Positions 5,093 to 32,924 of a stretch of 64,000 bases of DNA are shown one piece after another. The notes beneath the pieces are model-generated. The model did not search any database. It was not told the origin of the DNA and saw only the letters and a list, made by a program, of their open reading frames with translations. A program made the translations under genes and the position numbers. The number at the start of each line of letters is the position of its first letter. Positions within the stretch are counted from its first letter, which is position 1. The stretch comes from Diphasiastrum complanatum (lineage: Eukaryota > Streptophyta > Lycopodiopsida > Lycopodiales > Lycopodiaceae), in contig CM055108.1 in the NCBI GenBank assembly GCA_029204225.1, positions 11,439,782-11,503,781 of the forward strand, read 5' to 3'.

Positions 5093-5915
5093 GTATAAAC
5101 CATATCTGCACTCCGATTCCCAAAATGAGTTTTGAAACACGTGTCGAAACGCGGTCCAGAAACACGTTTCGAGTTTTTGGTAGAAACGCTCAGAAACTTG
5201 TTTTTTTTTTTTGTTGATTTTTTTTGGGCAATATTGGTATTAGATGAAAGCTTTAATTAAGAGCATCATTACTGTGTAGTTTGCCGAGCATTTCTTATAC
5301 AATTCGGTCAAGTTTAGGTGCATTAATCCATGTTGGGTTCTATCAAGGATAAAAATTTAAAACTAACCTCTAGCCTGTTCGTTACGATAACAGATGATTC
5401 CAGTGGGACAGAGACAGAGAACTGTGGAGCAATTGTATCTTTCTTTTTGCTTCAGGGGGCGGCGATAGTAGTAGGGGAGGCACCCCCCCCCCCCCCAAAG
5501 ATAAAAATGGGGGTCCAAATGCGCGCCGATAAGGGTCCAATATTTATGCCCCCAACTGTATGCACATTACACTCACATCTCCAATGAAATGATTGCAAAG
5601 TGAGCATCATCCATAGAGTTGACAGCCCAAACTGTAGCAATAACATTTACTGAGAACCAGAGCAAATAACAACCAAATAACTACTGAATCTAAGATTTGT
5701 TTGTGCCCTATCTACTGCACTTTGAGAGGCAAAACGTTGGTTTTGACTATTGCTCTCCTAAAAAAATTTCAACCATAAGCTATTTTTTCAAAACAATTTT
5801 TTTTTTTATTATTATTTTTTCATCATGTTTCGCATTTTGAAACGCATTTCGGAGAATTGCGGTTCGAGAAACACGAACCCAGCGAAACGTGTTGCTCTGC
5901 AACTATGGTATAAAC
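5093..5915. mobile_element. Non-autonomous hAT element A, with TSD
   Basis: The element runs from 5,101 to 5,907 (807 bp) and is flanked by a perfect 8-bp duplication GTATAAAC (5,093-5,100 and 5,908-5,915), the hAT target-site length. Its terminal inverted repeats are CATATCTGCA and TGCAACTATG. Both subterminal zones (about 5,127-5,200 and 5,825-5,890) are packed with GAAACG/CGTTTC words. Just inside the left zone lies a T-rich run and then a conserved block at 5,229-5,251 shared with elements B, C and D. The interior from about 5,470 to 5,810 is clearly homologous, in reverse orientation, to element B (about 21,745-22,050). There is no transposase gene, and short ORFs here are incidental. 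Confidence 0.92.
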
Positions 5916-7052
5916 ACACACATTCACTAGTTAGCAAATGGTACATTGATATGAGAATCACACTCATGTTTAGTAGAGCCCGCCATGTCTTTATGAAAAA
6001 CTCGCTCATATTTCTAAAAAATCTCGCTTGACCAAGCTCGCTCAAGGCCCATCCCCCAAGATGAGGTGAATGTGTTAACTTTTCATGCAATTTGTCCTAT
6101 ATGAATGGATGCTTTTATCAATTTGTAATTTATGCAAAAGTTGTGTTCATTTGTTGCTTATTATTTTAATTTAAGAATTAGGGCGTTTGAACTTTTTGTA
6201 AGTTGGATGAAGAGTTGATGGATAGAGATGTGAATACTAAAATGTGAATATCGTGAATACTGAAACGTGAATTCTCTGAATACTGATAATGAAACTTTGA
6301 ATATTGATCTTGATACTTTGAATACGTCTGTGAAGCTCTAAATACTGATCGTGAGACTTTGAATATTGATCATGAAACTTTGAATACTGATTGTGATCCT
6401 CTGAATACTTTGATCATGACATATTTTTGAAGATGTAATTGTGAATAAAAAATAGCAATTTTTCTAAACACTAAAGTTGTGACATTTTTTTTATATCAAA
6501 TGTGAATTTCATTAATTATATCAAATTATGAGATTAGTTAATACTCAATCATGATATTTGTGGCTACTCTCATGAATATCTATGCTGCAATTTGCTATTA
6601 GAAATTGAAATATTGTGAGCGTTTAATTGCACAAATTGTGACCATTTTTGTGAATTTAATTGTGAAATTGAGAAGAATAAAATTTATCACTACTTTCATC
6701 AATTCATACACTAATATAAATTGTGATATTCATTTTTTGCAATTGTGAATGTGCATCTTGGAATTGTAAATATTAATCGTGAAATTTACGACTATTTTTG
6801 TGAATATTAATTTTGAAATTTCTATATTAAGCTATAAAACTACAAATACTTAATAATAAACTTTGTCGTTGCTTCTAAAAAGTGATTGCAATATTGTAAA
6901 CCTATTATTTTAAAAGTATTGATTTTGAGTTTGTGACATCTATTTGTCTCCTTGCTATTCCTCTTGAGAGATGGTTGTTCCTCCTTTTTCTTGAGTCCTA
7001 ATAGATAGTAGCTCTCTTCCTCCTTTCTCCAATCTCCTCCTCCCTTTCCCTT
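5916..7052. other. Intergenic AT-rich DNA
   Basis: No gene is visible. A degenerate minisatellite occupies 6,231-6,420. After it, TGTGAAT-type words recur irregularly to about 6,830, perhaps its eroded extension. Confidence 0.5.
6231..6420. repeat. Degenerate minisatellite, about 21-bp period
   Basis: Roughly eight or nine units of the form TTTGAATACTGATCATGAAAC follow one another, for example near 6,297, 6,318, 6,339, 6,358, 6,379 and 6,400, with substitutions and one-base length changes. Confidence 0.75.
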
Positions 7053-8202
7053 TGTTAGAAGATTCTCGTGAAGATTTTTCTAACTAATTCCGACTATCAA
7101 AAGAGCATAACGGAGTCGAGCCACCAAACTACGATAAAGAGTGTCAACAAATCACCGATAAGCAGCTCCAAAATCTATATGCACTGGGGAGCGCCAATGC
7201 CAGAGAAGTCAACAAGACGCGGACCGACCAATGAGCAGAAACAAAGCCCAGCAGCTCACCACCATATTTTACGACGACGAGAATAAAAGCATGGCCGAGT
7301 CGACATAAAGACTTAGATCTACCTAGAATGTAATGTCAGACATCTATAGAAAGTACACTGTACTCGTAAGCCTATGGCGCGAGAAGTAGAGGTAGATCAA
7401 TGCTCTAATGAGCCTAAAGTGAAAAAGGACCCAAATAGTTAAATGCATTTTGGTTTTAAATAAAGTCAAGTTCTTATGGTACATGGTTTTGGGTGAACCA
7501 AAAACCCTAACCCTAGGATTGTCTATAAAGAGGCATGTGACACTATTTTGTAACCACTTTTCAAAGAGAAGAATATCGATTGAGAGAGAGAGTATCTCCT
7601 CCTTCCATTCTTGCTTTTGTGTGAAGTCCTCCTATTTTTTTGTGTGATTTTTATGGATTTGAATGCATGTTTGTTGTTGTTAATCAAGCTATCACAATCA
7701 AGAATGATCTTTAGCACTTGCATTCATCCATAGTTCCAAAACTAATCCATAAAATCCACACTCGAGCAAATAGGTGTTAGAAATCCCCTTTGGAGAGATC
7801 ATTAGGATCCATTAGGTAGTTTCTCTTTGCATTGTTCACCTCCCTTGAGAAGATCAACCTCAAGAGAAGAAAATCTAGAGCCAAAGATGCCTAGATAAGC
7901 CAAGAAACCAAGATCCAAGGAAAGGATCAAAACAAAACAAAGAAACAAAAAACAAAAGCTTGACACCCTTACTTGGCTTAGATCTCCCCCCTTTGGATCG
8001 AAGCCCGTTACTACACACGATATTCACCCGGTTGGAGATCCAAAACTAAGCCATTCTACTTTTAGATCCAAAACTAAGCTTGACACCCTTAGTTGGCTTA
8101 AATCTCCATCTCTACTACACGATACTCACCCAGTTGGAGATCCAAACCCGTTCTTGGCCCTCTCGATCGCACCGATTAGGGAGGCACAGAAAGGGTCCAA
8201 CG
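7053..8202 (+). mobile_element. 5' LTR of a pol-less LTR retrotransposon
   Basis: The right end is fixed by a primer-binding site immediately downstream (8,209) and by homology of about 7,800-8,202 to the terminal copy at 11,255-11,607. The left end is tentative: TGTTAGAAG at 7,053 would pair with the AACA-like terminus. A TATA box TCTATAAAGAG lies at 7,522-7,532. The LTR contains a short internal duplication (GCTTGACACCCTTA near 7,958 and again near 8,076). Confidence 0.6.
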
Positions 8203-8208
8203 TTGTTT

Positions 8209-8226
8209 TGGCACCGTTGCCAGAGA
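8209..8226 (+). promoter_or_regulatory. Primer-binding site, Tat/Athila style
   Basis: TGGCACCGTTGCCAGAG starts six bases after the LTR. It closely resembles the TGGCGCCGTTGCCGGGGA site typical of plant Ty3/gypsy Tat/Athila-type elements, with three or four changes. Confidence 0.65.
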
Positions 8227-8300
8227 GACGGTGCTAACAGTCCTAGGAGTGGATTTTTGTTTGCATTTGTTTGCTATTTTTCTCTTTTTTGACAAGTTTA

Positions 8301-8760
8301 TTACTCGCCTACATGGTTTTTTTCACTTTTCTATCATTTTTTTTACTCGCCACTTTCCCAGAGGCCACATCAAACCCTGAGGCATCTTCTGTTAGCTCGG
8401 TGAGTAAAGTCTATTTTTCGCCATCAAAGATTATTACTCGCCCAACCCAATTTTTGCATTTTTACTTACTATCATTACTCACCATCAATACAATATTATC
8501 AGAACCCTTAGATCTAGCATTCTGATGATCGACAAGTAATAAGCTATTTTTCGTCATTATTCGCCAATTCAAATTTCCCGCCATTTTTTTCAATTTCTCG
8601 TCTTTTTCTATTACTCGCGAACTGAGATTTCTCGCATTTTTTTTCAGTATCATTATTTGCTGTCAATATAGAGCATAGTACAATACTTGATCTACTACTT
8701 GGCAAACCGACGAGTAAAGATTTGATTTTTCGTCATTACTCGCCGACAGCCATTACTCGT
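8301..8760 (+). repeat. Cluster of TTACTCGCC motifs in the element leader
   Basis: The 9-mer TTACTCGCC occurs at 8,301, 8,343, 8,434 and 8,737. One-mismatch forms occur at 8,475, about 8,558, 8,611 and 8,754, separated by T-rich spacers of irregular length. It lies between the primer site and the gag-like region. Confidence 0.8.
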
Positions 8761-9059
8761 CATTTCTTGCCGACAAACAATATAGCAAATGACTGTGCAA
8801 TCTGGTGAAAGATAATGATCTACTGAGCCTAGAGACCATAATGAAGAACTACTATATCAGACTACTTGACAAGATCAAGTCTAGTATGAAAAAGTTCACA
8901 TCCTACACTTGACTGCCACAAATCTGTCAAAATGCGATCATTATGGAAAATATTATCTTAAAGAAGAGTATAGATCACTCATGTCCAAACGCAAAAATAT
9001 CGGATGGAAAATCAGAAAAATCTGAAGGTTCAATGCTAGTCAAGTAGACAAGAGAGGAA

Positions 9060-10577
9060 GGCTATGAATCAACTGGGAGTGCAACAAGGTCTAGCGAATC
9101 AGGTGCAACAAGTGACCACGAACCTAGTACTTCAAATTCCAACTGCCATCAAACTCAGGCTCGCAAGGCAAAATTTCTTGAGAAGGACCAATGTACATAC
9201 TGCTTCGAGGATCATCCAAGTACAAGATGTCCAATCAAGAATCTGAGCTTCTTACAAAGACAAAATGCAAAGTAGCAAGTTCGACAACAAGATCCAGCGG
9301 TTCAAAAGTAAAAAATAGAATCAAACCGACAAGGAGTTCATCAAGCGGATGGATGTCAAAGTGATTTATCTAAATCACGAATTTCTCCAGCAAAAAGTGG
9401 CCAAGTGGAAGTATTGGTCATATCATCTTGCATGTCACTGAACTCACAAGAAGACCATAATAGCCTACTAGTTTATTTTGTGGGAGATCCTAAGGGACGT
9501 CCATTACCTGTGTATGCTTATCAACTCGGAGGAGATGATATATTGCACACGGTACGATGCTTTGAATGCAGAGGAAGACATCGTCGAGTTGAATGTCCAC
9601 ATCGAGGTGATCCATCAACATTCGAACCTATGTGTTGACAATGCGGAGTCAACCATCTATACTTGGATTGTCCAGTGCGGAGCTCACAAATAGCTAGGAG
9701 ACATTTGGCATACGTAGATCGACATGCACCTGTGTTGTCCAATATACACACAGACTTAATGTGCTATAAGCGAAAAATCTTAGTGCCACTGAGGTATGAA
9801 ACAAGCGAGGAAGAAGTCAATTTGACAAAAATTCCAAAGTATTCGGATGCACCCACAGACAAATCAACAATATCACAGAAGACGGAGTTGGTAGAATCCA
9901 ATGGCATCTGAGGAAGTAAAAAAATTGGCAGCCGACGAAGTCTAGCGAATTTTACCAAGTCTCTTGGCACAATCATTGCAAAGATTTCTTGTCGATGAAT
10001 GAATTACAAAGAGAGTCTGTGTCAAAAGAGCAACTTGAAGACAACTCATTACAAAGTCCGAAAAAAATTATGATCACACAGCCTTCAATTGGGAAGTACA
10101 ATACCAAGGAGGAGACTAAGGTTGATGATTGCCCTACAATGAGCAAAATTTAACCAAAGTCTGACTGTTTTACAAAGCAACGGACCACCAATATAGTGCA
10201 AAATCTGAGTATAACAGTGCTTAAAAGATCAAATCCAGAGAATTCAAGCCCAAAAAAGTCATTTGCATAGCAAGAACCAGCACATACAATGTTTATGCCT
10301 TGTCCTCAATTAGTAAGATTGACTGTCGAACAAAGTCTTCAAGTTAAAAAATACCACGAACACTTAGATAGACTCAGCAGTCAAGCGAGCACATCCTATC
10401 CATATTACGAAATGAGAGAGGCCACGATAAGAACATTGGGAGAAGTGGCGCCGATCTATGAGGATCCATATCAACCAACTTTATCTTGGGATCCTCTGAT
10501 GGATGGTGTCGACTATCCAATTGTCGATGAACAAGATTATCAAGAATGGCCACCAGACCCATATGGTTATTATTGAA
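9060..10577 (+). pseudogene. Degenerate gag with three CCHC zinc knuckles
   Basis: Three C-x2-C-x3-H-x4-C knuckles lie in one reading frame: CTYCFEDHPSTRC (9,192-9,230), CFECRGRHRRVEC (9,558-9,596) and a third at 9,633-9,671 whose second position is a TGA stop. Such knuckles bind RNA in retrotransposon Gag. Stop codons also interrupt the frame between knuckles one and two. A further open stretch, 10,289-10,576, is rich in acidic and aromatic residues and ends in YGYY; it may be the Gag C-terminus in a shifted frame. No protease, RT, RNase H or integrase motif was found between the LTRs, so the element resembles the gag-only (TR-GAG or LARD) class. Knuckle calls are firm; overall gag limits are inferred. 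Confidence 0.65.
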
Positions 10578-10599
10578 AATCATGCCATGATATTGTTGA

Positions 10600-10602
<3 letters not shown>

Positions 10603-10677
<75 letters not shown>
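10603..10677. repeat. (GA)n microsatellite, 75 bp
   Basis: An uninterrupted GA dinucleotide run just downstream of the last gag-like ORF of the gag-only element. Confidence 0.98.
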
Positions 10678-10680
<3 letters not shown>

Positions 10681-17630: not shown

Positions 17631-17689
<59 letters not shown>

Positions 17690-20600
17690 TTGCTATTCTT
17701 CATTCCAGAAGCCTAGAAGTTCGAACGTAACCCTAAATTCCTAGAAAAAAACTCTCTTCCTCGTGTTCAGCCCTCTCTCTCACGTGCATTGCAGCTTCAC
17801 CATCTCTATACCTTTTGCTTCTCTCTCTAGAAAATTCTCTTTCCAGAAATTTCTAAAAGCAAGTGTTATCTCTCTTCTCTAGAATCAACGTGTTTGCCTT
17901 TCAACCCCACTTCAAGTGCCCATCAAACACATCTAGGGCATACGTGGACCAATGAGAATCTGCAAAAACCGTTTTGTCTATCATTGGTGACCTTCTCTCA
18001 TCATGTAAGTATATACGTAATCAACGTAGTTCTTTTGGCCAGCAAATCTCAGAGCCTCCACAACACCGATACTAAGAAAAAATCTTGCAAGAGGGAAGGC
18101 TCTCCAAAGTGGCAATAGCAAATTGTGTGACAACTCAAAAGACTTGGCATTGGGCAACCAGTGATGGATTGACATTGAGAAATGGCCTAAAGGCTCTCGT
18201 AAGTTGAGACCTTTTGTGAAACAAAACCCTACAACAAGCTACTGAGAGAGACTCGGAAAAGGAAGATTCACAGCATTAAACAATAGATCAACAAAGCTCT
18301 ATGACAAGCTACAGTAAGAGACTAGAAGGAAGATATAGTACTAAAAAGAGATCAACCCAGCAAAAGGAGAGTATGAGAGTACACACAAAGCTACATAATA
18401 GCAGATGCCTTGATGAGCAAGCTATTCCTAGGATAGTCTCAGCATACATGACCTAAGATCAGAAATGGGAAGCTGGTATAGGCCGAAGGAACCTTGGGGG
18501 CGACCTGTTTTCTATGACCTAAGATTGAAAATGCAAAGATGGTATAGGGCAAAGGACCCGTGAGAGAACAGGTCTATCTTCTATGCAAGACGAGGGAGGT
18601 TAAAATGAAATGTGGCACACCATCATCTCATTGAGCGCAAGAGCCTGCAAGCTATACATGACAAGTTTAATGGCCTACTTTCGACATGTCCACAATCTCT
18701 CCATCATCTCCTTGGCAAAGTGGATATAGACCAGCTTTGCAGTATTTTTGTCAAAGCTCACTTGCAACCTATAGAGTTATTTAAGCTTCTTATTTAGCTT
18801 TTGTTTACTTTATTGGTACTCATATACTTACTTATTGTACTTGTCAATTTGTCCCACCCATCGACTGGCCTTATTGGGCAGCAATAATAAATCAACTCAA
18901 GTAAACTCTTCAATTTGATACCAATGATTTTTTCTGGAGTAAGAAAGATAAAGTTAGTGATTGGCTCAAGAATCTGTCGATAAAGGTTACATTTGTGGAG
19001 GCATCTTTTGAGGGTCTCATTTTATAGATACCTAAGACTACAATTTCACAACTATGGGGAAAATTTGTGTGTAGAAAAGGAAATTCTAGCAAGCTTAAAT
19101 GCCATCTTGGTTATGAACAATAAATCTAGGAAAATTCATCTCTGGAGCTAGAAGTTAAAGAGATCTCTCTTCAAAACTTTAGTCCAACCACCAATCTTCT
19201 TTGGCTGTCAAATGTGGTGTCAATGTTTAGATAAGAAAGCTTGAAAAAAAGCCAAAAGGCTGCAAAAGATAGGCTTTGTTCCACATTTGGTATGATGCGA
19301 GAATATGAGGAAGCAAGGAAGAAAATAAAAATAAGGAGGAAAGAAATTGGTACTCAAGGCCTGCTTAGAAACCCGTTCTGACCCTTTTGGGCGGGAACAT
19401 ACTGTACGTTCCGTACAGTACATTCCGGAACATACTGGGTTGGAAGGTTTTTTTTAATAGCTCTAACTTAAAATTAACTGATATAATTAAGATAGCCATC
19501 AACTATCAACAGCAAATCAGGGAATCTACACATAAGATACATCTGCATCTGATATACGGTTATCCATACTGGGCTGCTGAGTAATCGAACTAATACATCA
19601 GATTCATGAGTAATCCATAATGGTCATTTGGTCCTGCTTTGCCTAGGCTACATCATACATGAGTAGAGTGCCACCTGCTAGATATCAGAAATCTGGATGA
19701 GCGACCTCCATGGCCAGCACTGGGGCGATCAGATTCATGAGTAATCCATAATGGCAATCCACTTAGGCTACATCATTAAAGTGCCACCTGCTAGATATCA
19801 GAAATCTGGACGCCAGCACTAAGGCGATCAGATTCATGAGTAATCCATAATTGCCATTTAGTCCTGCTTCGCCTAGGCTACATGATTAAAGTACCACCTG
19901 CTAGGTATCAGAAATCTGGATGAGAGAACTCCACGGCCAGCACTGGGGCGAGATCATAAGGACCAGCTCGATCTGGCAAACATGAATGAAATTCTTGCAG
20001 CTCACGTTGATCCTAGAATCGCTATCTGAGCCACGTTCTTAAGCTCACGTTGATCTTAGAATCACTATTTCGTTCCTTATCTCAATTCCTTTGTTAAAAA
20101 ATTACGTATTTTTTGAAAAAAAATCTGGTCAAGTTCCGGACAGAATGCGTTCCATTCCAGAACAGGCAACTAAGGGTTATAGAGAGATCACAAAGCAAAA
20201 GAGGGAAGTGTCTATGAAGAAGAAACAAGCTACATTGACCATAATGTGACACAATGATGTTTTTGGAAAAACTCTCCTTTGATAAGCCAATGGTACTCTT
20301 GAATTGCATGGAGATGAGTACATGGTTGGATTAGGCCAAACAATTATAAGAGGTATGTGAGGTTAATTGAATTCCATCACTTCATATCATTAAAAAAAAA
20401 GGTTAGTTTACTGAAAAAGGCATTGTAGAGGGGTTAAGCGACATGACCAATAAGAAAGCTGAATATATTGAGACATATTGACACATGATTTTCCATTCGC
20501 TTTTATACCATATTTTTATAAGAAATTTTTCCATCCTTTTAGCCCAACTGGCTTGGCACCCTCTTGGATATGGCTAATTAGAAAAGTATTCCATTGTATA

Positions 20601-21506
20601 GTCATCTATACATACATATTACATAAAACCAAGATCCCATACAAATAATGCCCTTTTGCCATTAACAAAATAGAGCATGGCATAAAACTCTTTTTCACAT
20701 GTTGAATAAATCTTTCGAGCAAAAATGAGCTTCTTGCTAACCAAGGCTACGGGCCTTTCCTTTTGCATCAAAACAAACCCCACAACAACATACTTGCATT
20801 TGAACTTCAAGTAGAAGGTTTTTTGAGAATCAACTATCTTGAGAGTGCATCTTCAGCCATAGCTTGCTCAGCTCATCGAAGCTTGATTGTTAAAGATTTG
20901 TAACTTTGTATACTCAGCATTCTATTATTTTGCAAATTATCTATCATAGGTGCCAATATCTTGGAGTGACCTGTTACAAACTCATAAACCATAAATCACC
21001 AAGTGCTGGTGAACACAAGAAAATGAACGCTCATGATCCACCCTGCCGTAGAATCCAATCCCGATCCACCCTTCGTGCCCTAGGCTTGAGACTTGATATC
21101 AAGCAGGATCAAACTTCCATCCCTAATGACGTCCCATACCACCATCAGCACCTTTGGCCTTCTCTTGCCTCTAGCTGGCACCATCCTAGCTATGCACATG
21201 CGCACTACCATCCACCTGCTCCTAGGTAGATAGAATGAATGGTAACTGAGATCTCCTCCCAAGTAGGAGTCTCCATGCCAAGCACATATCCCTGGTTACG
21301 ACAAGTGGCATGGATGTTGTCCAGTGTTCCCTCGAAACATGTTTCGAACGCTGAAACGCGTTCGAAACGGGACGTACGAAACGACCCCATTTCAAAACGG
21401 CGTTTCATTGTTCGAAACGACTGTTGAAAAAACGCAAAAATTTTTGGCGATACAGTGCGGGCCCGAGGGGTGGCTGTTTTCACTTTTTGGCGCAATAGAG
21501 AAGCCC

Positions 21507-21579
<73 letters not shown>

Positions 21580-22558
21580 GTGACTTGTGTGGGTTGTGTG
21601 TTGTGTAACGTGTTGTGAAATGTGTTGTAAGTTGTAACCATAGTTGCAGCGAATCGCGATTCGCTGGGACTGCGATTCGCGGGTCGCGATTCGCGACCCA
21701 GAATCGCAAAAAAACAAAAAAAAAAAAAAAAAAAAAAAATTTTTTTTTGGAAAAATAGCTTATTGCTGAAATTTTTTTATGGGATCAATGGTCAAACCAG
21801 CGTTTTGCCTCTCATAAGTGCAGTAGATGAGGCACAAACAGATCTTATTTTCAGTAGCTATCCGGTTGTCATTTGCTCTGGTTTTCAGTAAATGTTAATG
21901 CTACAGTTTGGACTATCAACTGTATGGATGATGATCACTTTTGCAATTGGTTCACTGGAGATGTGAGTGCAATGTACATACAGTTGGGGGCATAAATATT
22001 GGGCCCTTCTCGGCGAGCATTTGGACCCCATTTTTATCTAAGGGGGGCGGTGGCATTTTTATCTACAGTGTCTATATAGCAAGAAGCTCTAGGGGGTTCG
22101 GGGGATAGTAGCCCCCCGGGAAACGGGGGGTTCGGGGGGGCGGTAGCCCCCCGAGAAACGGGGGGTTCGGGGGGCGGTAGCCCCCTGGTGGGGGGTTTGG
22201 GGGGCAACGCCCCCCAACGGCGGGGTCCGGGGGCTACCGGCCCCGACGGTAAGGCCTCTTCATGATTTGGCCTTTCAACTCCCCGAGTGAAAACAAACTT
22301 TTTGGTGTTTCGCACCCGAAACAGTCGGCAAACTACACAATCATAATCCCCTCGATTAGAGCTTTCATCTGATACCCATATTGCCTAAAAAAATTTCAAA
22401 AAAAAAAAAAAAAAACAAAAATCGATTCTACACGATTCTGGGAAAATCCCGAATCGCGAATCGGAATCGCGATTCTGATCTCGATTCTGAATTGCGATTC
22501 GGGAATCGCGCTGCAACTATGGTTGTAACTTGTGATTGTGTTGAGAGAGAGATATTGA

Positions 22559-22591
<33 letters not shown>

Positions 22592-22762: not shown

Positions 22763-22811
<49 letters not shown>

Positions 22812-24596
22812 AGGGATAGATTGAGGATAGATTGAGGTTAGAGCTTAGGTTTACCATAATCCGTTTTAGAAATTAGGATTAGTTTTTAATTTGAAGTCTG
22901 AATTTAATACAGTTATTGTTTTGTTGCCACTAGATAGCTATTAGCAATGCCCAGACCGCAGGATCCCTTATGGGATCACGTCACCCTTAATTCAAGTCAT
23001 GGCACATCAGGCACGAAGAAGTGGACTTGCAAGTATTGTGCGAACACTTATGGAGGTGGCCCCGTTCGAATCAGGGCGCATCTTTTACGTATACGAGATC
23101 GCCATTTGCACTCAGGCCCCAGAGTCACTGTGAGGATTGCTGGGATCGGGGACGACTCTCCTGCTACTACTTCAGGCACAGGTGAATCGTGAATCTTGTT
23201 TGATCAATGACAAATTATGACATTGATTGAAAATTTGAAATTTGATCTAAAGCTAAAACTTAAAAGTTCAGTCTATAACTTTAAACTTTGATTACTGATG
23301 AGTAATTAGTGACTATTCTCTAAGCTCTCTCACTGACTATAATTTATTACCTAAAGCCTGCTGCGTAACTAGTAACACCAATGTTATTGTTACAGGTGCG
23401 GCAGAGCGCCGAGATTCCCCATCGTAGGGGTCTAGCTGTATGTGGCTGACTGTTGTTATGTAATTTTCGGCAGTAGATGAGGCAACATTTAGTGTCTAAC
23501 ATGTGTAAAGAATAGCCCCGGCCGTATATGGCGGGAATACGTATTGTTATTTTGAATACATCTGATGAATTAATGTACGGTCTTTTTTGTGCAACGCGTG
23601 CCTGGTGTATTGCAATGTTATGTATGTGTTTATGAAATGCTATCAGGGGGGTGTATTTCTGTGAAGTGCATCTGCACAGGAACATGGAACCGTAACAACT
23701 AGAAACAATCACGTTGATGAGTGGACGTTTACGACGATCAATCCACCCATCAGCCATGATGGAACAACCGTATCTATCCCAAGCCTCCTGCAGTGCGGCT
23801 AGTCTCTCTCTGACGGATGCAACCCACTCCTAGAGCAAAGGGCCGCGTAGTGCGTCGGTTGTGGGTGGTGTGTAGCTGGGCCTGCAAACTGCAACTTTCG
23901 AGATAGCCTCTCGAAAGATGCGGGATGATGCCATGATAAAGGGGAGGTTCAGGTCATAGAACATTTGTGCTATGGTCCTGGTGGTCTCTCTGTGCTGCCC
24001 CTCTCTGAAAGATCCCAGCATGGACATCTGTCTGGTGCCTCGGGATGTGGATGGCTGGGAGGATGTGGATGGACGATGCAGATCTAGAGGGGTGGCATAT
24101 GGTGTAGGTGCGAAAGGGGAGGATGTGGACGGACCGTGCAGATCTGACGGTGATGGCACAGGCGTAGGTGCAGCAGTGGAGGCTGTGGATCCATGGGGAG
24201 TACTGGCGGAGGGGGTACGGGTGGCTGTGGCGGAGGCGGTGGCGGTGGCGGGTGCGGATGCGACAGTGGGGGTGGGGGCGGTGGCGCTGGGTGTACCAGT
24301 GGCAGGGGCGGTGGCAGTGGGTGCACCAATGGAAACAAAGTCTACGGCATGTGTGGACGGCTCGTCGGGCTCAGCATATGCCTCGAGAATGCGAGCCCTC
24401 TCCGGAGAGGGGATGACCATACAAACGCCGATCCCGTAGCGCCCCCCTTTGGGTTGGACTCGCAATCCCCCCAAATGTGCTCGAACCCAAGAGGCGTTCC
24501 CTGTGAACTGCTTTCGACAAAAAGGGCAACGCCACTTTTTGTCAGGCATCAACTCCACCTCATCCCAAATGGGACGAGCGGCCATCTCTCTCTCTC

Positions 24597-24644
<48 letters not shown>

Positions 24645-24897
24645 GCACACAAATCTAATATCTCTCTCTCTTCTCCTAAACCCCAAACCCAAGCACGTAG
24701 ACCCTAAACCCTAAACTCACACACACACAACATGTCTAGCGCCCCCCTTTGGGTTGGACTCGCAATCCCCCCAAATGTGCTCGAACCCAAGAGGCGTTCC
24801 CTGTGAACTGCTTTCGACAAAAAGGGCAACGCCACTTTTTGTCAGGCATCAACTCCACCTCATCCCAAATGGGACGAGCGGCCATCTCTCTCTCTCC

Positions 24898-24952
<55 letters not shown>

Positions 24953-25199: not shown

Positions 25200-25290
<91 letters not shown>

Positions 25291-28200
25291 GCCCTCTTTC
25301 TCTCCTCTCTCCTCTTCTGCGGACTGTTCTGCTGCCCGCGTGCCCTTTTTTTTTAAAATAAAAAAACGCGTCTGGACACTGGACGCGTCTAGAAAAAAAT
25401 TTGAAATTTTTTTTTGGGACGCGTCCGACCCCGCGTCCGGGGGTCGGACGCGTCCAGGTCCGGGCGTTGGACGTGGACGCGAAAAGGCCGCGTCCGGCCC
25501 GGACCCTCATGTTTGCCCTGGGTCAAAGAGGTTGTAGACATGGCACGATTCTTGGTGAGATTTGTCACCAAGAACAGAGGGTCTTGAGCATCTTCAAGTC
25601 CTATTCCACCTTGGATCTCTTGAGGCCTGCCCCCACTAGGTAACCAAGTTCCAACTTCTAACCTGACAACCTGTTTCCAATTTTTTGATTTGAAAATTGC
25701 AATTTTGTTTTAGCTTCAAGTTTCAGTGCTCATAGAATTTTAATTTTGCTATATAGTATAGCCTGCTTGTTGCCTATGGGCTATATGACCAATTACAAAT
25801 CTTATTTCATGATTTTCATCCTAGGTTCCTGACAGGTATATTACTAGAGTCTAGTAACTACGTTAAAAGTTTCAAAGTTGATTCTTGAATCTTCATTGAC
25901 ATTCATAATTAGAATTTAGTTAAAACTTAATAGTTCTTGAGACTTGAATGCTCAAGCCTCAAACTTCACTCCTGATTGTTTGCAGGCTGGAAGAAGTAAG
26001 GGGCCTATTTCTAGGCAGATGGCAGTGGTTCCATCAACCTTTGCATGTCGTGGCTTGCTTGCTTCATCCACTATGGAGGACGGAAGATCGATTCCATGAT
26101 CGAGAGCTCGGGCAAGGATGGCATTCCTACATCTCCTCTATGTATCCTGATCCCAGGGATCAGGATGCAGTCATGAATGACTTGAATTTATTCAGGTAAG
26201 TACTATGTAATTAGTAAATTGTAATATGTATTCAGGACCCAGGTATGTAATATGTATTCATCTATGTAGTATGTATATGTAATATGTATGAAGTCTAAGG
26301 CTTAAGCTAGCTGCTAGTTAAAACTTAATAGTAGTAACCTGTAAGCATTTAGTATTTACTATTTTGAAATTTGAATGGTGATGAATGTTGAATGTTCAGG
26401 ACCGAGCGCCTCGATTTCGGTCGTGCAGCTGCCATGCTGACGGAAGGGCAATTGCGCCCTGTTCCATGGTGGATGAAGTATGGGAATGATGTTCCCAAGT
26501 TGTAGAAACTTGCCATCCGCGTCCTCTCACAAGATTGCGCAGCAGTTGCATGTGAGAGAAATTGGAGTGTGTTCTCTCTGATTCATACGAAGAGGAGGAA
26601 CAGACTTTCTACTGCGCAGCTGGAGAGGTTGGTGTATGTGCATGCCAACCTACGGCTTGTGAAGAAGCTAAGAGAGACCGGGGAGCCCGTACAGGTAATG
26701 AATCATGATTAAATCATTAATCTTGATTCTATAGAGTCTAGTATCTACCATGAATCATGATTTGTCTAGATAGTAGAGTCTAGACTATACACTAAGAAGT
26801 TAGAACCTTCAGGCTTCAAGTTTCAAGTTTCAAGTTTCAACTTTCAACGTTTACATTTCAAATTTGCTATTTTTTTTAAATCGTTTACTAGTACTTATTA
26901 TTGAGAATCGAAATCTTGGTTTAATTTCAATTTTCGTAGGTTAATCCCGATCAGATCGATGTGGCAAAGGTTCCGAACTTGCCACCAAAATCACAAGAGG
27001 AGGAGGATGTCTATGCTCTACTCCATCGGGAGGCCTTAGCAACTGCAGGTTGATTTCGATGCCCAATTCCCCGATTCACTGCGTTACATTAGTAGGCTTT
27101 TAGTACTTTGAAGTTTTGTAGATATACTAGATAGTAGATTACTAGATTGTAAGTTGTAATTACTAATTTGTAATTTGTAAATTGTAAGTTAAAACTTAAA
27201 AGTAATATGACATGTCGAGACTCGAGCCTAAGTCCTGATTCCAATTGTGTGCATTGTGCAGGGCCTACCACTCGAGCTGCAGCATGAGGACCAGGAGCGT
27301 AGGAGAGGGCCCGAGCCATGCAGCAGTCTCAGACACCTCTGAGAGTCCCTCTAGCACTGACTCAGATGAGGAATATGCCATTGAGGGTGAGGGATCGGAT
27401 GAGGAGGATGAGGGTGACTCTGATGATGGGGAGGATGACATTGAGCTTGAGGACATGCCAGTGCCTCCACGATGACACCGTCCGAGGCGGGCAGCTAGAG
27501 GCTAGAGCCTAGATGGGCATTGGGGGGGGACACTCACTGCTCAGCATAGATGATAGTGGCATACTCTAGGCTCTAGCATAGTAGTTATACATATTACTGT
27601 TTACATAATACATATGACAGTTGACTCCAAACTCATGGGGCCTCAGGCTTGAGCCTTGAGGGCCGAGGCCACGCTTGACACTCTTGTTATTTATGGAGCA
27701 TTATGCATCATTGCGTTTACTTTAAACTTTTGACTCTTGAATTGTAATTTGTGATTCACTGATTTGTAAATTGTTACTAGTTAGAACTTACTACTTACTA
27801 CTTAGAAAACTTAGTGCCAACTTGAAATAACTTCCAAGTTAGTGATCAGTGCATTGTAATTTGTAATTTGTAACTTGTAAGTACTAGGTAGTAAGTTGAA
27901 AGTTCTATAATTATTAGTTTGTAACTTTACTGTTTACAATTTTGGAAGTTCTTGGATGTTTGAAAATTGAGAATGTATGATGAATGGTGACAATATCAAT
28001 AATTGACTGAGGAAAGTGTCGAGTGACCATAGTCATGAGTCACGACTCACCATACTACAGCTTCTCCTCTTGAATTGCATTCTCTAGAGCATTCTCATGA
28101 AATTGGATGTATCTACTTGTTACTAGACTGTATGAAACGAGCCCATGGAACATTGACGTTGTCCATAGGCCCAATCCATGTCCGCTTTCAAATTACATGT

Positions 28201-31200
28201 GGGGGCCGAGGAGTTGGGTCCCTAACATAACCCTTCACAAACTTTTGACACAAACCAATCAATCCAAGGAAAGACCTCAATGCTATAACGTTGGTCAACA
28301 CTCACCACACGAGAATAACATCAAATTTCTTGGGATTTGGTCTTACTCCCTCAACCAACACAATATGACCTAGATATTCAATCTCTTTTTTGAAGTGTTC
28401 GCTTTCTTAGAATTAGCAAACAAAATGGTTTTCCTCAAAGTTGACAACACAATTCTAAGATGGGTCACAAGCAAGACCTCTCCAACCCTGTAAGTCAAGA
28501 TATCATCAATAAAGTTCACTACAAGCTTACCGACCGTCCGAGCACATCATTCTTCTTCAACATCATAAATGTGGCTGGGCAACATTCAATCCAAATCACA
28601 TCACAAGCAACTCATAGTGATCAAACCAAGTTCAAGAGGCAATCTTGTGCACATCCTCCTCATGAATCTAACGTGATAATATCTGCTCTTCAATTCTATT
28701 TTACTAAACTCAATAGTACCATGCATGACATTTAGCAAGTATGTGGCATCAGATATCGATGCTTAATGATAATCTTGTTCAAGCCTCAATACTTTAGCAA
28801 ACATACGTCAAAAATCATTCTTCTTCTTAACAAGAATGATCAACAAGGCAAAAGTTGAAAAGCTAGGCCTTACTTGCCCTTTGGCCAAACGACCCTTTAT
28901 CATTTTCCTCACCTCCCCTTCCTCTCGAACTCAATGTGTAAGGTAGTTTATTGACAAGATGAGATTGAAAAAAATTATTTAATCTTATGTTCAACAGTTC
29001 TACTAAAAGGTAGTAATGACCTCAAATTATCATTAAACACGACTGCCAATACTTTCTTCTCTTTTGGTCTAGATAAGCTGCAATAGTTCGTGCATGCCAT
29101 ATGCTAGTCCCACTAGCACTAGTGGACATCAACCAAAAAGCAAACGCTTGCACTAATCATGTACCTTATGCAACTATGTATCTAAGACCAATGGTCCAAG
29201 AAGCACGTCTTGCTCGTCACAGATGGAATGAAGGTTGTCGTACTAAAACTTGTACAAATGAGAATCCCTAGCAAAATAGGGCTCCCGCATCCCATGCCAA
29301 CAAACCCCCACCACATTGTCAAATCTCAAAAAAAAAAAATTATGCAACTCAGAATAGTTAATGAGATGATTCAACTTCTTCACTGTAGTCGAATTAAAAA
29401 CATTATGTGAAGACCCAATGTTTAATAGAATAAAAAAATCTCTATGACACAATTTTCCAGACATAATAATCAAAAAAATGCTATGATACTAATACTCCTT
29501 GTTGCATCGATGTGATAATGTAGCTAGAAAATTCGTGCACCTTTTCGACCACTAAGACATTTATCAACGGTGGAACATCCTATAACTATGATCTTGCTCT
29601 AACTTCGCCACATGCTTCAGTGCTTCCATCTAGTACACTTGAAAACTACACGTGGCACACATCTAATTCTATGGACATTTTTTCCAACATTGTCGTGCAA
29701 CCCAAGCATCCAAAAGCACAAACTTTTCCCTTCAACTCATTCTTGGTCTTGTGGAGACAAAACGCTAGAAGTTGATCCCCTTGGGCATTAGGCCATCAAT
29801 ACAACCCTCTGCCTTTTGGAGCACAACCTCCTATGCCTTTTCGGCCACCAAAGATTGCCCTTAACTAGACTGGCTTTCAAACCTCTTGAAATTCTTGAAC
29901 ATGTGTTTACTCGAAGGTCGTTGACCACTTCAAGCGAACGCAACAAGGGCTTGGCATTAGTTCTCATCTTCATGATAAAATGCCACCTAAAAGGCATTTT
30001 ACAATCCTCTGAGAACTCCAATAGAGTTTTCCTAAAATGTGCAAAAAATAAATAATTTCATTTATTCTAAAAGTTTTGACGTTTAAATCGTTCTATTATC
30101 TAGTAAAAAGATTCAGGCTGTTGTTGGGTAAGTTTTTTGAGGTTTTTTCTGATTTTTTTAAACTTTTTGATTGAATTTTTTCATGTCTAGACAAATAAAA
30201 ATAAAACAATGTTCCAGAACACTCGTTTGGCTCCATCTATGCTATAAGATTATCATAAGTGTCAATTAAGGATCAAGAATCCTTATTCATTTAGCCTCAA
30301 AGCACCCTACACACTATCAAAGTTTGTAGTGAATCGTAATTTTATTTGAAACAACAATTCACATTAGTTAACTTGTCCACACTAATCAAGCTCATAACTT
30401 CCAAAATTTACAATGTTGACATGACAGGTTCCAATCCGGAACGCGAATTGGGAAATCCCATTGAGTTTCCCAGAACGTGCACTAAATTTTTTTTTAAAAT
30501 TTTTTCCAAAAAAACAGATTTATTGGTGTGCAAATTGTTTAGACAGAATCATAGATGCACCGCGAATCTGAATCGCGTTTCGGGTTTTTCAGAGAATTGT
30601 GCAGAATCGAATTTTTTTTTTTGAAATTTTTTTAGGCATATGGGTATCAGATGAAAGTGTAGTTTGCCGACTGTTTCGGGTGCAGGATGGTCCAATTTAG
30701 GTGTTTTTACTCCCAAGCTCTCTGATTCTCCCTCTCTCTCTATCTCTCTCTCTGATCACAACAAACGGAACTAAAACCATGCTGAACAAAAACCCAGCTG
30801 GCGCGGTTCTGTCCTCCACAGCTGGTGTGGTTCTGTCCGCAAGGAGGAGGCCCGAAATGCACAAATATTGTTTTTTTTTTCAACGATTCTTGACCAAAGA
30901 TGCAGGCCGCGTTCCGGATCGTGTTCCGAAAAGTGATCCGGAATTTCCCATTGGGGTTTCCCGGAATGCAAATTTTTTTTGTTTTTTTTTTCAAACCTGC
31001 CAATATGGGTATCATGTGAAAGGATTTCAAAAGAGCAGTTCCATTGCTTGATTTCAGATAGTTAATCCCCAATATCTGCTAGTCACTTCAATCAGATACT
31101 GAAGCAAATTGTTTTTGCAGATACGGATTTGCAGATATAACATTGGCTAATCATTTCATTTGTATCTGCTTCAGTATTTCTGCTGCTATTCATTGGTCAT

Positions 31201-32924
31201 TTATTGCAACTAGCTGTGGGGATCCCTCTACAATTAAAAAAAAATTTGCAAATTTTTTTGCGATCCGGATCGTTTTTCTAGCGGATCGTGATCCGCTGCA
31301 ACTGAGTTCTTGACAACGATTCGCTGCATCTATGAGAATATAAATTTTTTTCTGCTCCTATTAACGTTTTTTTAGGCCATTTCGTGGTTTTTTTTGGGAC
31401 TTTTATGAGAAAAATTAATAGGTTGATCAATCATTTACATAGAATTGAAGTCAATATGAGATAACAATCCTGCATCAACACCACCATTGAAACACTTTAT
31501 TTTGTAAGTTTTAAACATTAAGCTTCAAGCAGCTTATTGTGACTTTCTAATAATTCCTATCCTACTGCTGGTATAGAACCACAGTAAGAAAATACCTAGT
31601 TCAGGCCAAACTTGCAAATTGGTATTAAATAACTACGTCTACGTGTTCTTTCTATTTTTCCACCCACTCAGACACCAAGAACATTATTGAAAAATGAACA
31701 CAAATGCAACATCACATTCATCACATAAGATTGTTGTGAATGTGCACTTTTGTGGCAAAAGTAAACAATCTAAAGTCTGGAAATGGCAATTCGAAATCAT
31801 AATGATATCTACTAGCATCCAATAGATTCAACCTGAAATTTAAGTATGAAACCTTATTGCTCTTTCACGAGTTCAGTTACTTTATTTGTGCTAGTGCTAT
31901 AAGCAAGTCGTATAAACAAAATAATAGATACGACTTGCTTATAGCACTAGCACAAGTTTGGAATGATAGATAGCTCTAAACAGTACATAAAGCATGATTT
32001 GTCCACTACTTCAACAGCCATTTCCCAAATGTTCAATATCAGAATGCAAGATAAGGACCACTTGGAACTCTATACAGCGTGAATGGATTCTGGAAAGAAA
32101 AAGGTAGGTTTGAAATCAAAAGCTGCATAGCCAGAGATTAGAATCGACAACCAAATGTTTATATGAAACTGAAAATAACCTTCTGGGTCATCCTAATAAA
32201 GCTCACATGCGAATGCTCCTAGGTCATAACCGTAGCATAGATTGAGGGCATGTTACAGCACAAACCCTAAACAAGAGAAACTATTTGTCTCCTCATCTTC
32301 CTGGATACGAATTCCTTGAAGCTCATCATGTCCTAATGCCACTTCCTTGGTTTTTCGTTGTATTTCGAATATAGTTCGCATACGGCAATATGCCTGAATT
32401 AGACGACCTTCCGCATGAAATTTTTTCAAAAACAACAAAGAAAATCTCTCGGAGCAGAGACATTACATGAGTGATGTTCACGCGGGTTTACATTTCTTTC
32501 CAAATAATAATCAAACAAAGCGCCTTAAGCTCTTTTTCCGTTACAGGCTAAAGCCGGTCCAAGATTAACGTAGCCCTCTTTCCTATTTGAAAGCAAGCAA
32601 TCATAGAAACGATCAACAATCTGACAAAGAAAAGAACTTCTTACTTTGTAAATTAAGAAACAGATGATCGTTGATAAAACGCGAAGCCTCGGGGCCTCCA
32701 TGGCCGTCATAAATCCCCACGAGTGTGCCATAGGAGCCAGTCTCGATCTGGCTTTGATCCTCCAGCAGGGCATTAGCCTGCACCACAGCAATGGAGAACT
32801 GACCACATGCATGTTCAACCAGATCTCTGTACCAGAGCAGGGCATCATTACAATCTGCGGCATTCGGATATCCCTCTGCAGGCTGCCAACATGCCTTCAG
32901 CATTCTGTAGATGCGTGCCAGCAT
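12823..32924 (-). CDS. Protein phosphatase 2C, plant clade D
   Basis: Four exons (32,924-32,645; 17,586-17,228; 14,080-13,844; 13,119-12,823) join in frame into 390 codons, the usual clade D length, with GT/AG at every junction. PP2Cs are Mg/Mn-dependent Ser/Thr phosphatases. Clade D members dephosphorylate the plasma-membrane H+-ATPase and are held off by SAUR proteins; one also acts on an immune kinase. Visible motifs: N-terminal [13 protein letters not shown] typical of the clade, [12 protein letters not shown] (residues 48-59), metal-binding GIYDGHGG (70-77), ANLGDSRAV (149-157), SRSIGD (215-220), FASDGLWE (268-275) and [10 protein letters not shown] (327-336). No transmembrane segment appears in the sequence beyond the short hydrophobic/basic N-terminus. 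The start is the only ATG that gives the conserved N-terminus. The gene looks intact. Introns are 15,058, 3,147 and 724 bp; the first two carry transposon remnants. Confidence 0.96.
13120..13843 (-). other. PP2C intron 3
   Basis: 724 bases with GT/AG ends. No repeat or gene recognised inside. Confidence 0.9.
13844..14080 (-). CDS. PP2C exon 3 (residues 214-292)
   Basis: The acceptor is TTGGCAG. The exon runs from [20 protein letters not shown] to SNHPRT and includes [14 protein letters not shown]. The donor is GTGTGA at 13,843. Length 237 bases, phase 0 at both ends. Confidence 0.95.
14081..17227 (-). other. PP2C intron 2
   Basis: 3,147 bases with GT/AG ends. It contains a plus-strand copia gag fragment (about 15,980-16,290). 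Nothing else was recognised. Confidence 0.9.
15980..16290 (+). pseudogene. Copia gag fragment (UBN2-like) inside PP2C intron 2
   Basis: One frame reads [16 protein letters not shown], then [14 protein letters not shown], a stop, and [20 protein letters not shown]. This matches the layout of copia Gag (hydrophobic helix, then E-W/L-LE-LY, then QL...). It is antisense to the host gene. No LTRs were found next to it. Confidence 0.6.
17228..17586 (-). CDS. PP2C exon 2 (residues 94-213)
   Basis: The acceptor is TTTGCAG ending at 17,587. The exon encodes [16 protein letters not shown] and WRVKGIIQ, and ends on a codon boundary before donor GTAGAAG at 17,227. Confidence 0.95.
17635..17685. repeat. 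(CT)n microsatellite beside the exon 2 acceptor
   Basis: A 51-base CT run on the plus strand. In the sense of transcription it is a GA run ending about 48 bases upstream of the acceptor of exon 2. Confidence 0.98.
17690..19370. other. Intron 1 segment, nothing recognised
   Basis: Short ORFs only. A few CT-rich patches occur at 17,760-17,890. No domain or LTR was identified. Confidence 0.45.
19385..20175. mobile_element. Element F, hAT-like with GTTCCGGAAC words
   Basis: The left zone (19,392-19,440) carries GTACGTTCCGTAC and ATTCCGGAAC, followed by a T run. The right zone (20,130-20,165) carries GTTCCGGAC and GTTCCATTCCAGAAC and ends GGCAACTAAG, close to the TGCAACTATG terminus of A and B. 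No matching 8-bp duplication was found, so the limits are approximate. The interior holds a three-copy repeat and no transposase. Confidence 0.5.
19599..19955. repeat. Three tandem units inside element F
   Basis: Units starting CAGATTCATGAGTAATCCAT at about 19,599, 19,731 and 19,830 each contain GCCACCTGCTAGATATCAG or a one-base variant and end near CAGCACTGGGGCGA. Lengths differ (about 132, 99 and 126) because of internal deletions. Confidence 0.85.
20600..20880 (-). pseudogene. Ty3/gypsy RNase H fragment
   Basis: The minus strand reads a recognisable gypsy RNase H start: [13 protein letters not shown], then [18 protein letters not shown], then [15 protein letters not shown] and LFVWDLGF. 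Known family pattern: the conserved catalytic Asp that should follow the first strand is not at its place here. The matching RT portion lies at 28,164-28,960 on the same strand, on the other side of hAT G. Confidence 0.8.
20881..21313. other. Stretch left of hAT G, unassigned
   Basis: Expected to be gypsy sequence between RT and RNase H, but I could not read a clear domain. It may contain another insertion. Confidence 0.35.
21508..21577. repeat. (GA)n microsatellite in hAT G
   Basis: A 70-base GA run, just inside the left word cluster of element G. Confidence 0.98.
21631..22529. mobile_element. Non-autonomous hAT element B, with TSD
   Basis: The element runs 21,639-22,521 (883 bp) with perfect duplication GTTGTAAC (21,631-21,638 and 22,522-22,529). 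Termini are CATAGTTGCA and TGCAACTATG, a perfect 10-bp inverted repeat. Both subterminal zones (21,649-21,708 and about 22,420-22,511) are built of GAATCG/CGATTC words. The conserved inner block lies at 22,361-22,385 on the minus strand. The interior matches element A in opposite orientation and has a GC-rich minisatellite at 22,091-22,249. It is inserted in hAT G. No transposase. Confidence 0.95.
22091..22249. repeat. GC-rich minisatellite with hairpin and G-run units
   Basis: About five units of 29-35 bases, starting near 22,091, 22,125, 22,160, 22,190 and 22,221. Each has a run of four to seven G, TTCG or similar, more G, then a run of C, for example GGGGGGTTCGGGGGG then CGGTAGCCCCC. Each unit can fold as a hairpin. 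Successive G-runs also fit a quadruplex pattern. Confidence 0.9.
22555..22810. repeat. TG-rich and (GA)n simple sequence
   Basis: A (TG)n run at about 22,559-22,586, a TG-rich imperfect stretch to about 22,760, then a GA run at about 22,766-22,809. This lies between the end of element B and the BED exon of hAT G. Confidence 0.95.
22947..23181 (+). pseudogene. hAT G transposase, BED zinc-finger exon
   Basis: ATG at 22,947, then [30 protein letters not shown] and a spaced His, the BED-finger pattern (C-x2-C ... H) by which hAT transposases bind their own element ends. A donor GTGAATCG follows at 23,182. A possible small second exon starts after TTACAG at about 23,396 and soon meets a stop, where fragment H begins. 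The next readable G exon is at 25,527, so the central part is missing. Confidence 0.7.
23640..24585 (-). pseudogene. hAT H transposase, BED finger plus DUF659
   Basis: ATG at 24,585 gives [20 protein letters not shown], with the BED pattern C-x2-C then HLGG. A long Pro/Ala/Thr/Ser-rich linker follows (about residues 85-185), then a DUF659-type segment beginning near [17 protein letters not shown] and [16 protein letters not shown] (probably from CAG) interrupts at about 23,832. The same frame then continues with [33 protein letters not shown] and degrades near 23,640. DUF659 marks the N-terminal half of one hAT transposase group. The C-terminal dimerisation domain is missing. A GA/GT microsatellite lies directly before the ATG. 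Confidence 0.75.
24438..25046. repeat. Tandem duplication (300-bp offset) of the H first exon
   Basis: AGCGCCCCCCTTT at 24,439 recurs at 24,739. The two copies are almost identical through the BED-coding part, the CT and CA microsatellites and the CCCTAAA words to CATGTCT, differing mainly in microsatellite length. Confidence 0.93.
25200..25288. repeat. (CT)n microsatellite in fragment H
   Basis: A CT run with one short interruption (CACTCA near 25,226-25,231). Confidence 0.95.
25527..27475 (+). pseudogene. hAT G transposase, C-terminal exons
   Basis: Likely exons, each with GT/AG edges: 25,527-25,639 (hAT middle region; one frame ends [17 protein letters not shown], the run that precedes RF-A in this family), 25,986-26,195 ([15 protein letters not shown]), 26,400-26,694 (hAT dimerisation domain: [37 protein letters not shown]), 26,940-27,048 ([20 protein letters not shown]) and 27,262-27,475 (a Ser/Asp/Glu-rich acidic tail). 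A TAG at 26,503, probably from CAG, and a frame change before the acidic tail show that it is dead. hAT transposases dimerise through this domain and cut their own ends in the nucleus. Confidence 0.8.
27476..28155. other. 3' non-coding part of hAT G
   Basis: No coding signal. Repeated TTGTAA/TTAGTA-type words occur. The end near 28,020-28,060 carries a GAGTCATGAGTCACGACTC palindrome, then the terminus GGAACATTG at 28,147-28,155. Confidence 0.5.
28164..28960 (-). pseudogene. Ty3/gypsy reverse transcriptase, degenerate
   Basis: Minus-strand reading with many frame breaks gives, in order, VKKKN (near 28,830), [25 protein letters not shown]-type ATFM region, then [14 protein letters not shown] (about 28,494-28,530, the FxDD catalytic motif), [19 protein letters not shown] and RSFLGLIG-like residues near 28,250. 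This is the standard gypsy RT order. The downstream RNase H lies at 20,600-20,880, separated by hAT G. Confidence 0.75.
29243..29473 (-). pseudogene. Ty3/gypsy protease-like remnant
   Basis: The frame reads [20 protein letters not shown], matching the retrotransposon aspartic protease pattern (D-S/T-G-S-x-H-N-F), with the catalytic Asp replaced by Asn. It lies upstream of the RT fragment in the expected order. Confidence 0.6.
29788..30021 (-). pseudogene. Possible gypsy gag remnant
   Basis: A 77-codon open frame rich in Arg/Lys, upstream of the protease-like remnant. No diagnostic motif is visible. Assignment rests on position only. Confidence 0.3.
30425..30549 (+). mobile_element. Fragment E, hAT-like left end
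   Basis: The left end begins near CAGGTTCCAATCCGGAAC and closely follows the layout of the left end of D (CCGGAAC, then AATTGGGAAATCCCATTG, TTTCCC and a T run). It stops at the start of element C. No right end was found. Confidence 0.5.
30550..31334. mobile_element. Non-autonomous hAT element C, hosting D
   Basis: Termini CATAGATGCA (30,550-30,559) and TGCATCTATG (31,325-31,334) are a perfect 10-bp inverted repeat. AGAAT abuts both ends (5 bp only). Words are CGAATC/GAATCG on the left and CGATTC on the right. The conserved inner block is at 30,635-30,657, followed by TAGTTTGCCGACTGTTTCGG as in B. Removing D (30,895-31,306 and one TSD copy) leaves about 365 bp. Confidence 0.82.
30887..31314. 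mobile_element. Non-autonomous hAT element D, nested in C
   Basis: The element runs 30,895-31,306 (412 bp) with perfect duplication TTCTTGAC (30,887-30,894 and 31,307-31,314). Termini are CAAAGATGCAG and CTGCAACTGAG. Words are GTTCCGGATC, GATCCGGAA, GATCCGGATC and CGGATCGTGATCCG. The conserved inner block is at 31,001-31,022. Confidence 0.92.
31886..31955. repeat. Perfect 27-bp hairpin in PP2C intron 1
   Basis: The left arm 31,886-31,912 and right arm 31,929-31,955 are exact reverse complements, with a 16-base A-rich loop. Each arm contains GCTAGTGCTATAAGC or its complement. It could be a MITE relic or a small-RNA-type stem. Confidence 0.9.
31956..32644. other. Start of PP2C intron 1, no element recognised
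   Basis: No transposon signature or gene. A 61-codon minus-strand ORF at 32,253-32,438 has no recognised domain. Confidence 0.45.
32645..32924 (-). CDS. PP2C exon 1 (residues 1-93 plus one base)
   Basis: ATG at 32,924-32,922. The exon carries the N-terminal clade motif and the first metal-binding motif YDGHGG. It ends CAAA before donor GTAAG at 32,644; the last base completes an ATG codon with exon 2. Confidence 0.95.

Follow-up and report, generated by a model that had tools for sequence, protein, structure and literature searches.

Among known systems, those nearest to the elements analyzed here are the maize Ac/Ds system and Hermes of the housefly. In Ac/Ds, the transposase binds cooperatively to AAACGG hexamers that are clustered in the terminal ~200 bp on either side (PMC3260210), and in Hermes, BED domains bind a quasi-palindromic pair of subterminal repeats in a 2:1 ratio, likewise cooperatively, with all base-specific contacts coming from R63, Q64, T65, S66, N67 and R70 of the apical finger loop (PMC10368747). 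The family described below is like Ac/Ds in its clustered end hexamers, 8-bp target site duplications (TSDs) and short non-autonomous derivatives, and like Hermes in its N-terminal CCHC finger, putatively of BED type, and subterminal repeats in both orientations. It nevertheless departs from both. In the excerpts of the respective papers, Ac/Ds is described with one hexamer, whereas here sister subfamilies within one genome differ at homologous sites, and the words are mostly GAAACGCG/GAATCGCG rather than the AAACGG of Ac/Ds (PMC3260210); the Hermes motif is AAG(T/C), in arrays that are unequal between its two ends, and no radiation of word classes is described in the excerpted Hermes account (PMC10368747). 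Herves and Tgf2, the latter with an N-terminal zinc finger according to the excerpts available, are further hAT comparators. Among open-licence full texts, no earlier description of a word-class radiation paired with finger differences was found. The joint change of a transposase and its many scattered sites is puzzling, since an isolated change benefits none of the sites. Sister subfamilies that are present in many copies within one genome and differ by one letter of the end word, with two of the corresponding fingers read, bring this puzzle within reach of binding assays.

Elements A–D and their end words

The window, the whole 64,000-nucleotide stretch of Diphasiastrum complanatum DNA that was analyzed, sits on contig C17 of the genome searched (1.745 Gb) and contains four related elements, each with an inner block:

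5101..5907, plus strand: element A, a non-autonomous hAT; TSD GTATAAAC; GAAACG words predominate at both ends
5233..5250, plus strand: inner block of A (ATTGGTATTAGATGAAAG)
21639..22521, minus strand: element B, a non-autonomous hAT with the block end at right; TSD GTTGTAAC; inserted in element G
22362..22379, minus strand: inner block of B
30550..31334, plus strand: element C, a GAATCG-type hAT; TIR CATAGATGCA; imperfect TSD; holds element D
30640..30657, plus strand: inner block of C
30895..31306, plus strand: element D, a non-autonomous hAT nested in C; TSD TTCTTGAC; GGAACG/GGATCG words
31005..31022, plus strand: inner block of D (ATGGGTATCATGTGAAAG)

The sequence-only reading, which preceded this analysis, had treated A–D as one family with a nearly identical inner block, and both points were confirmed: the TIRs are alike, the ends are related, the blocks start at 5233, 22362 (minus strand), 30640 and 31005, and the common interior of several hundred bases ascribed to A and B was measured at 86% identity over 340 bp. 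The hAT hallmark of a short TIR, CATAGTTGCA or variants thereof, is present at both element ends, as the element search itself required. In A–D, a TIR like CATAGTTGCA is followed by a cluster of words in both orientations and then by an A/T-rich tract. The 8-bp TSDs are exact in A, B and D, and the flanks of C have only AGAAT in common. Among 25 complete elements (29 minus two with false right ends and two duplicates), the TSD is exact in 21 and shows 1–2 mismatches in the remaining four. The Ac-type TSD consensus is nTnnnnAn, and it fits 13 of the 25.

Three word classes can be distinguished, namely GAATCG (B and C), GAAACG (A) and GGAWCG (D), the general half-site form being GNNNCG, here GRAWCG, with up to 11 half-sites per end, many of them in palindromic pairs. 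Together, GAAACG, GAATCG, GGAACG and GGATCG reach a density of 39.4 per kb in the ends of the 25 complete elements, compared with 1.2 per kb in the window. Element B contains GAATCG as the sole word among these four, A also carries odd words, and class D has mostly GGAACG/GTTCCG at its left ends and mostly GGATCG/GATCCG at its right ends. In particular, GGAACG is the top left word and GGATCG the top right word in 11 of the 12 class D elements whose two ends both have words; in 4 of these 11, the left end is tied. The proposition that a copy carries the same word at both ends fits one letter throughout and another in part: position 2 of the commonest word agrees between left and right in all 24 elements in which both ends have a word, whereas position 4 agrees in 13 of them (one with a tied right end) and differs in 11 (seven clearly, four with a tied left end), all 11 being of class D. 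The stricter picture of a pure single word per copy is contradicted both by the differing left and right words of D and by the odd words of A.

Genome-wide, the exact inner block occurs in 2,494 copies (1203 + 1291), and a second variant, that of D, in 680 exact copies (347 + 333), with the reversed control yielding none in either case. Although typical of class D, the second variant is not exclusive to it: among 27 distinct left ends that carry it, two (L036 and L045) are of the GAAACG class, and one (L041) has none of the four words. The identity of the block is revealed by L013 on C1, which together with L089 makes up one 2,963-bp element with GTTGAAGT on its flanks and GAATCG words at both ends, containing a finger exon of the C2HC type, a segment that matches the middle part of the H transposase (see below), and a C-terminal tail. 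In L013, the block is located just past the transposase gene and ahead of the GAATCG cluster, and is thus part of the transposon of this family itself, namely its 3' subterminal segment. Transposase C termini also adjoin the block in L021, L022 and L025, and in L036 of the GAAACG class. As part of the explanation that we favor below, and with the moderate confidence given to that explanation as a whole, elements A–D would belong, as non-autonomous members, to an Ac-like hAT lineage that is large and in part young.

The window contains further hAT sequences:

19360..20175: element F, whose ends are hAT-like; words of GGAACG type; limits approximate
21322..21440, plus strand: element G of a distinct hAT family, 5' end, beginning CAGTGTTCC; words CGAAACG; aligns with L100
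22947..23183, plus strand: BED exon of the G transposase; 21.5 bits against Pfam zf-BED, cut-off 20.6
23690..24585, minus strand: first exons of the H transposase, with a BED-like finger; another hAT family, inside G; one stop
25360..25515, minus strand: element H, 5' end, with CAAACATGAGGG when read downward from 25515; words GGACGCG
26395..26694, plus strand: C-terminal exon of the G transposase, hAT dimerisation; Dimer_Tnp_hAT, 47.1 bits; one stop

F, G and H all differ from A–D in their terminal sequences, and on this basis G and H are taken to be other hAT families. The start of G is confirmed by a second G-type copy, L100. The H finger scores 16.3 bits against Pfam zf-BED, below the cut-off of 20.6; among 30 H-type loci, CAGACATGAGG is found in 13 and CAAACATGAGG in 5, and GACGCG is, as counted by eye, the top GNNNCG word of the densest upstream stretch in 21. 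A search for TSDs of F and H found none. The word that had been given for F, GTTCCGGAAC, has no exact occurrence in the window, in which GAATCGCGATTC, GGACGCGTCC and GATCCGGATC occur exactly two, two and one times, respectively. Since several hAT families here use palindromic words of the GNNNCG type, look-alikes between families arise easily. The BED exons at 22947 (G) and 24585 (H), to which the words of A–D had initially been related, belong to elements with other termini, which rules them out as alternative fingers of A–D. By eye, none of nine G-type BED places on C1 is within 6 kb of a listed block; these nine, of 11 such places on C1 in all, are those inside the range of the block list, which comprises the first 100 places on C1, to 63.7 Mb. 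The first exon of H (24376–24585, minus strand) is partly duplicated ~300 bp away, at 24712–24885 (88% identical, 58 residues). Elsewhere in the window, positions 9540–9720 of the plus strand resemble, by eye, a retrotransposon gag zinc knuckle (CFECRGRHRRVECPH).

Interior subfamilies and parallel word changes

The relationship between words and interiors was analyzed on 61 distinct left ends (five duplicates dropped), 58 of which were labelled by majority word (25 GGAWCG, 18 GAAACG and 15 GAATCG), with L010, L028 and L041 lacking a label. On a tree of the 170 bp inward from the block (58 rows), the three classes are accounted for by three changes, the minimum being two and the mean for shuffled labels 26.7, although the shuffle test is a generous one, in which near-copies cluster any label. 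The extra change is that of L002 and L015, which combine GAATCG words with a GAAACG-type interior and are supported at 84/71 as a pair and at 81/69 together with winA, in a tree with unsettled bootstrap, four long rows of unsure place, winA and winD rows that start one base late, and both L051 and L052 retained, which are a single insertion whose flanks exist twice. Interior subfamily thus predicts word class almost strictly, with only L002 and L015 departing, and the independence of word class from interior, for which a tree had been set beforehand as the check, is not observed; strict grouping of interiors by word had been named in advance as an outcome that would speak against the proposal. 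The idea that words are swapped between copies fails except for this one small, weakly supported group; the words are mainly subfamily marks and not cassettes traded among copies. In the same collection, L035/L044, L054/L055, L056/L057 and L051/L052 are paired C1 places with identical insertion and flanks, which are either segmental duplications or duplicated assembly haplotypes.

Comparison of the subfamilies shows how the words differ. In the 5' (right) ends of single copies, alignment shows seven word sites, as judged by eye. Going from B to A, T is replaced by A at word position 4 (on the GAATCG strand) in five of the seven sites, and two remain GAATCG, L023 having GAAACG at one of these two. 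Going from B to D, A is replaced by G at position 2 in all six alignable sites, one of which varies further among D copies; the seventh site is unalignable. The outer palindrome GTTGCAGCGRATCGCGATYCGCTG, searched with a pattern that allowed four states, has 612 matches, and among the 100 listed, 42 are of the A/T form, 58 of the G/C form and none is mixed (by eye; two G/C places were read on both strands, so that 98 places are represented). Three adjacent half-sites of the 3' end, in 100 listed matches of 240, are all GAAACG in 93, all GAATCG in 5 and mixed in 2. Given that the copies descend from few sources, what these counts show is that amplification of mixed forms was rare; they are not tallies of independent events.

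Homologous word sites do, then, change alike between subfamilies, as both the alignment of the 5' ends and the unmixed outer palindromes attest, and this pattern, in which the repeated end words of sister hAT subfamilies differ in parallel by one letter, is real and informative. The stronger formulation of the sequence-only reading, that the words must change in concert, goes too far, considering that A-class 5' ends are mixed and that D-class ends tend to differ at position 4. Specifically, a GAATCG form stands among GAAACG words in 13 of 36 A-class 5' strings shown (from 125 matches, of which 100 places were listed), and four A-class copies vary site by site relative to each other at this end. 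Methylation decay was considered as a source of the class differences and rejected; neither the change of A to G at position 2 nor that of T to A at position 4 would be expected from CpG decay. Other words were encountered as well: L099 (C3:25593420-25593760) has a cluster of GAACCGTACGGTTC near the expected A-class 5' end, and neighboring word types, GGAAGCG and a GGATCC/GGTATCG cluster, are found at L089:455-500 and in the upstream parts of L072 and L073.

Transposases and finger exons of the A and B classes

The family encodes its own finger transposase, and the fingers of the A and B classes differ. The genes of the two classes are close: an A-class gene (L090) matches DUF659 with 124.8 bits, and an A-class DUF659 exon matches copies with B-class frames at 92–94% identity. 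The Dimer_Tnp_hAT exon of G has matches of 50% identity in L022 and L025, both of which are B-class loci. The finger exons of the two classes, which are 73–80% identical in protein, gave no Pfam matches up to E 0.1 and align with the G and H fingers, keeping the W, C-x2-C and RAHL. Within the core finger, RRWRCLHCGG(H/L)FTGSLTRVRAHLLRVRG, replacement of His by Leu three residues after the second zinc cysteine is the sole difference that the A-class copies L092, L093 and L103 all have; L094 has Leu too, with a stop at residue 4. When this codon was left open, 619 places were matched, and the 100 listed comprise 61 His and 39 Leu with no third residue (by eye), the pattern having been drawn from A and B sequences and hence sampling those classes only. 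In a first look across the genome, finger candidates numbered 4,869 of H type, 3,868 of G type and 6,766 of B type, with overlap possible and 150 of each scored.

The words accompanying the two residues differ as well. The His copies read (L013, L021, L022, L025, L095 and L096) have 40 GAATCG and no GAAACG words, 33 at six 3' ends and 7 at one 5' end (L089), paired by position and orientation, whereas the Leu copies L097, L098, L101, L102 and L104, represented by four 5' ends and one 3' end, have 15 GAAACG and 13 GAATCG, so that the comparison is mostly one of 3' with 5' ends. For 5' ends only, the single His end has 7 GAATCG and no GAAACG, and the four Leu ends have 14 GAAACG and 13 GAATCG. 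All-GAAACG strings are found at the 3' ends of the Leu copies at C1:30559661, C2:68301181, C2:78887766 and C3:25592494 and of those of L093 and L094. Recognition would seem to be relaxed in the GAAACG class (GAAWCG) and strict in the GAATCG class. The residue also goes with the length of the DUF659 frame (by eye, eight Leu with 131 residues, six His with 122 and one Leu with 149, no pair being crossed), and is therefore inseparable from the rest of the gene.

The class-linked His/Leu difference is in line with the proposal that words co-evolve with BED specificity, but other features of the finger speak against it. The loop SLTRVRAH, which matches the base-reading loop of Hermes in our own alignment, is identical in A and B, and the His/Leu site precedes it; the identity of the reading loop weakens the claim of recoding. 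In the core finger, pN is 0.03–0.04 and pS 0.23–0.35, with no excess of amino-acid changes, so that purifying selection is evident and there is no sign of an arms race. Judging from these protein comparisons, finger recoding between A and B is possible, and finger–word co-evolution is suggested. It is doubtful that a single substitution at this core-finger residue (His/Leu, CAC/CTC) modified or loosened recognition of the word at numerous sites of both ends and so split the lineage into readers that prefer different words; if true, this would amount to transposon speciation by end recoding within one genome.

For class D, a transposase search of 30 loci with the second block variant, ~1.5 kb on each side, gave no matches in the D-class elements; among these loci, L036 is of the A class, and the hAT matches of L038 fall just outside its D element. 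The A-class finger of L036 was not found; in L091 (C1:15690000-15690700), at the expected position of an A-class finger exon, a sequence resembling a LINE reverse transcriptase (by eye) was met. A search of PDB sequences with the B finger returned no Hermes match and 17 weak matches, mostly to C2H2 fingers, and the AlphaFold model of this finger (mean pLDDT 57.9, pTM 0.39) is too poor for placing the His/Leu residue.

Origin of the subfamily-specific words

We favor, with moderate confidence, the explanation that the end words are subfamily-specific docking sites of the transposase finger, renewed by bursts of autonomous elements with altered or relaxed recognition. The cluster of GNNNCG half-sites behind the short TIR would provide the probable docking sites for the N-terminal C2HC finger, perhaps in pairs. 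One finger would have to read every site at both ends, which would confine a subfamily to one word or a narrow set of words. New words would spread through a burst founded by an autonomous element whose recognition had become slightly different or looser, and its deletion derivatives would inherit the words of their founder. We infer that the finger binds the words, that selection caused their change, and in which direction this change ran. The same reasoning suggests a route for assigning non-autonomous elements to their source transposase.

It is unlikely that the words were instead homogenized within elements, a changed word being spread through a cluster by slippage, by gene conversion or by one palindrome arm being copied from the other, with finger specificity being irrelevant. 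Such a process is consistent with the left end of L011, an expanded array of one unit (by eye), and with the matching palindrome arms in all 98 listed places. However, several inter-word spacers are alignable between classes, the sites looking changed in place; single sites vary among A-class 5' ends, as with point changes; and position 2 is common to both ends despite the hundreds of bases between them.

A plain founder effect, with source elements carrying drifted words and recognition so loose that words hardly matter, is also unlikely, even though the prediction of word class by interior subfamily and the tolerance of A or T at position 4 in A-class ends both agree with it. So does the finding that 60 of the 150 listed B-type BED matches, counting the place of the query itself, have the same protein sequence, so that the bursts look recent. 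Drift, however, would alter the sites in varied ways, and the five changed B-to-A sites all carry one change, for which we estimate a chance of ~1 in 100,000 if the 18 single hexamer changes are equally likely and the sites independent; the lack of GAAACG among the words of the His copies points the same way. Very improbable is a literal swap, in which ends or interiors were replaced by recombination or template switching in gap repair: L015 (complete, with an exact TSD) and L002 (left end only) do join GAATCG words to A-type interiors, and a pattern from the L015 left end has 30 copies, but this is the sole such group among the 58 labelled left ends, its tree support is weak, and the L015 left end aligns site by site with that of the A-type L014, so that point changes suffice.
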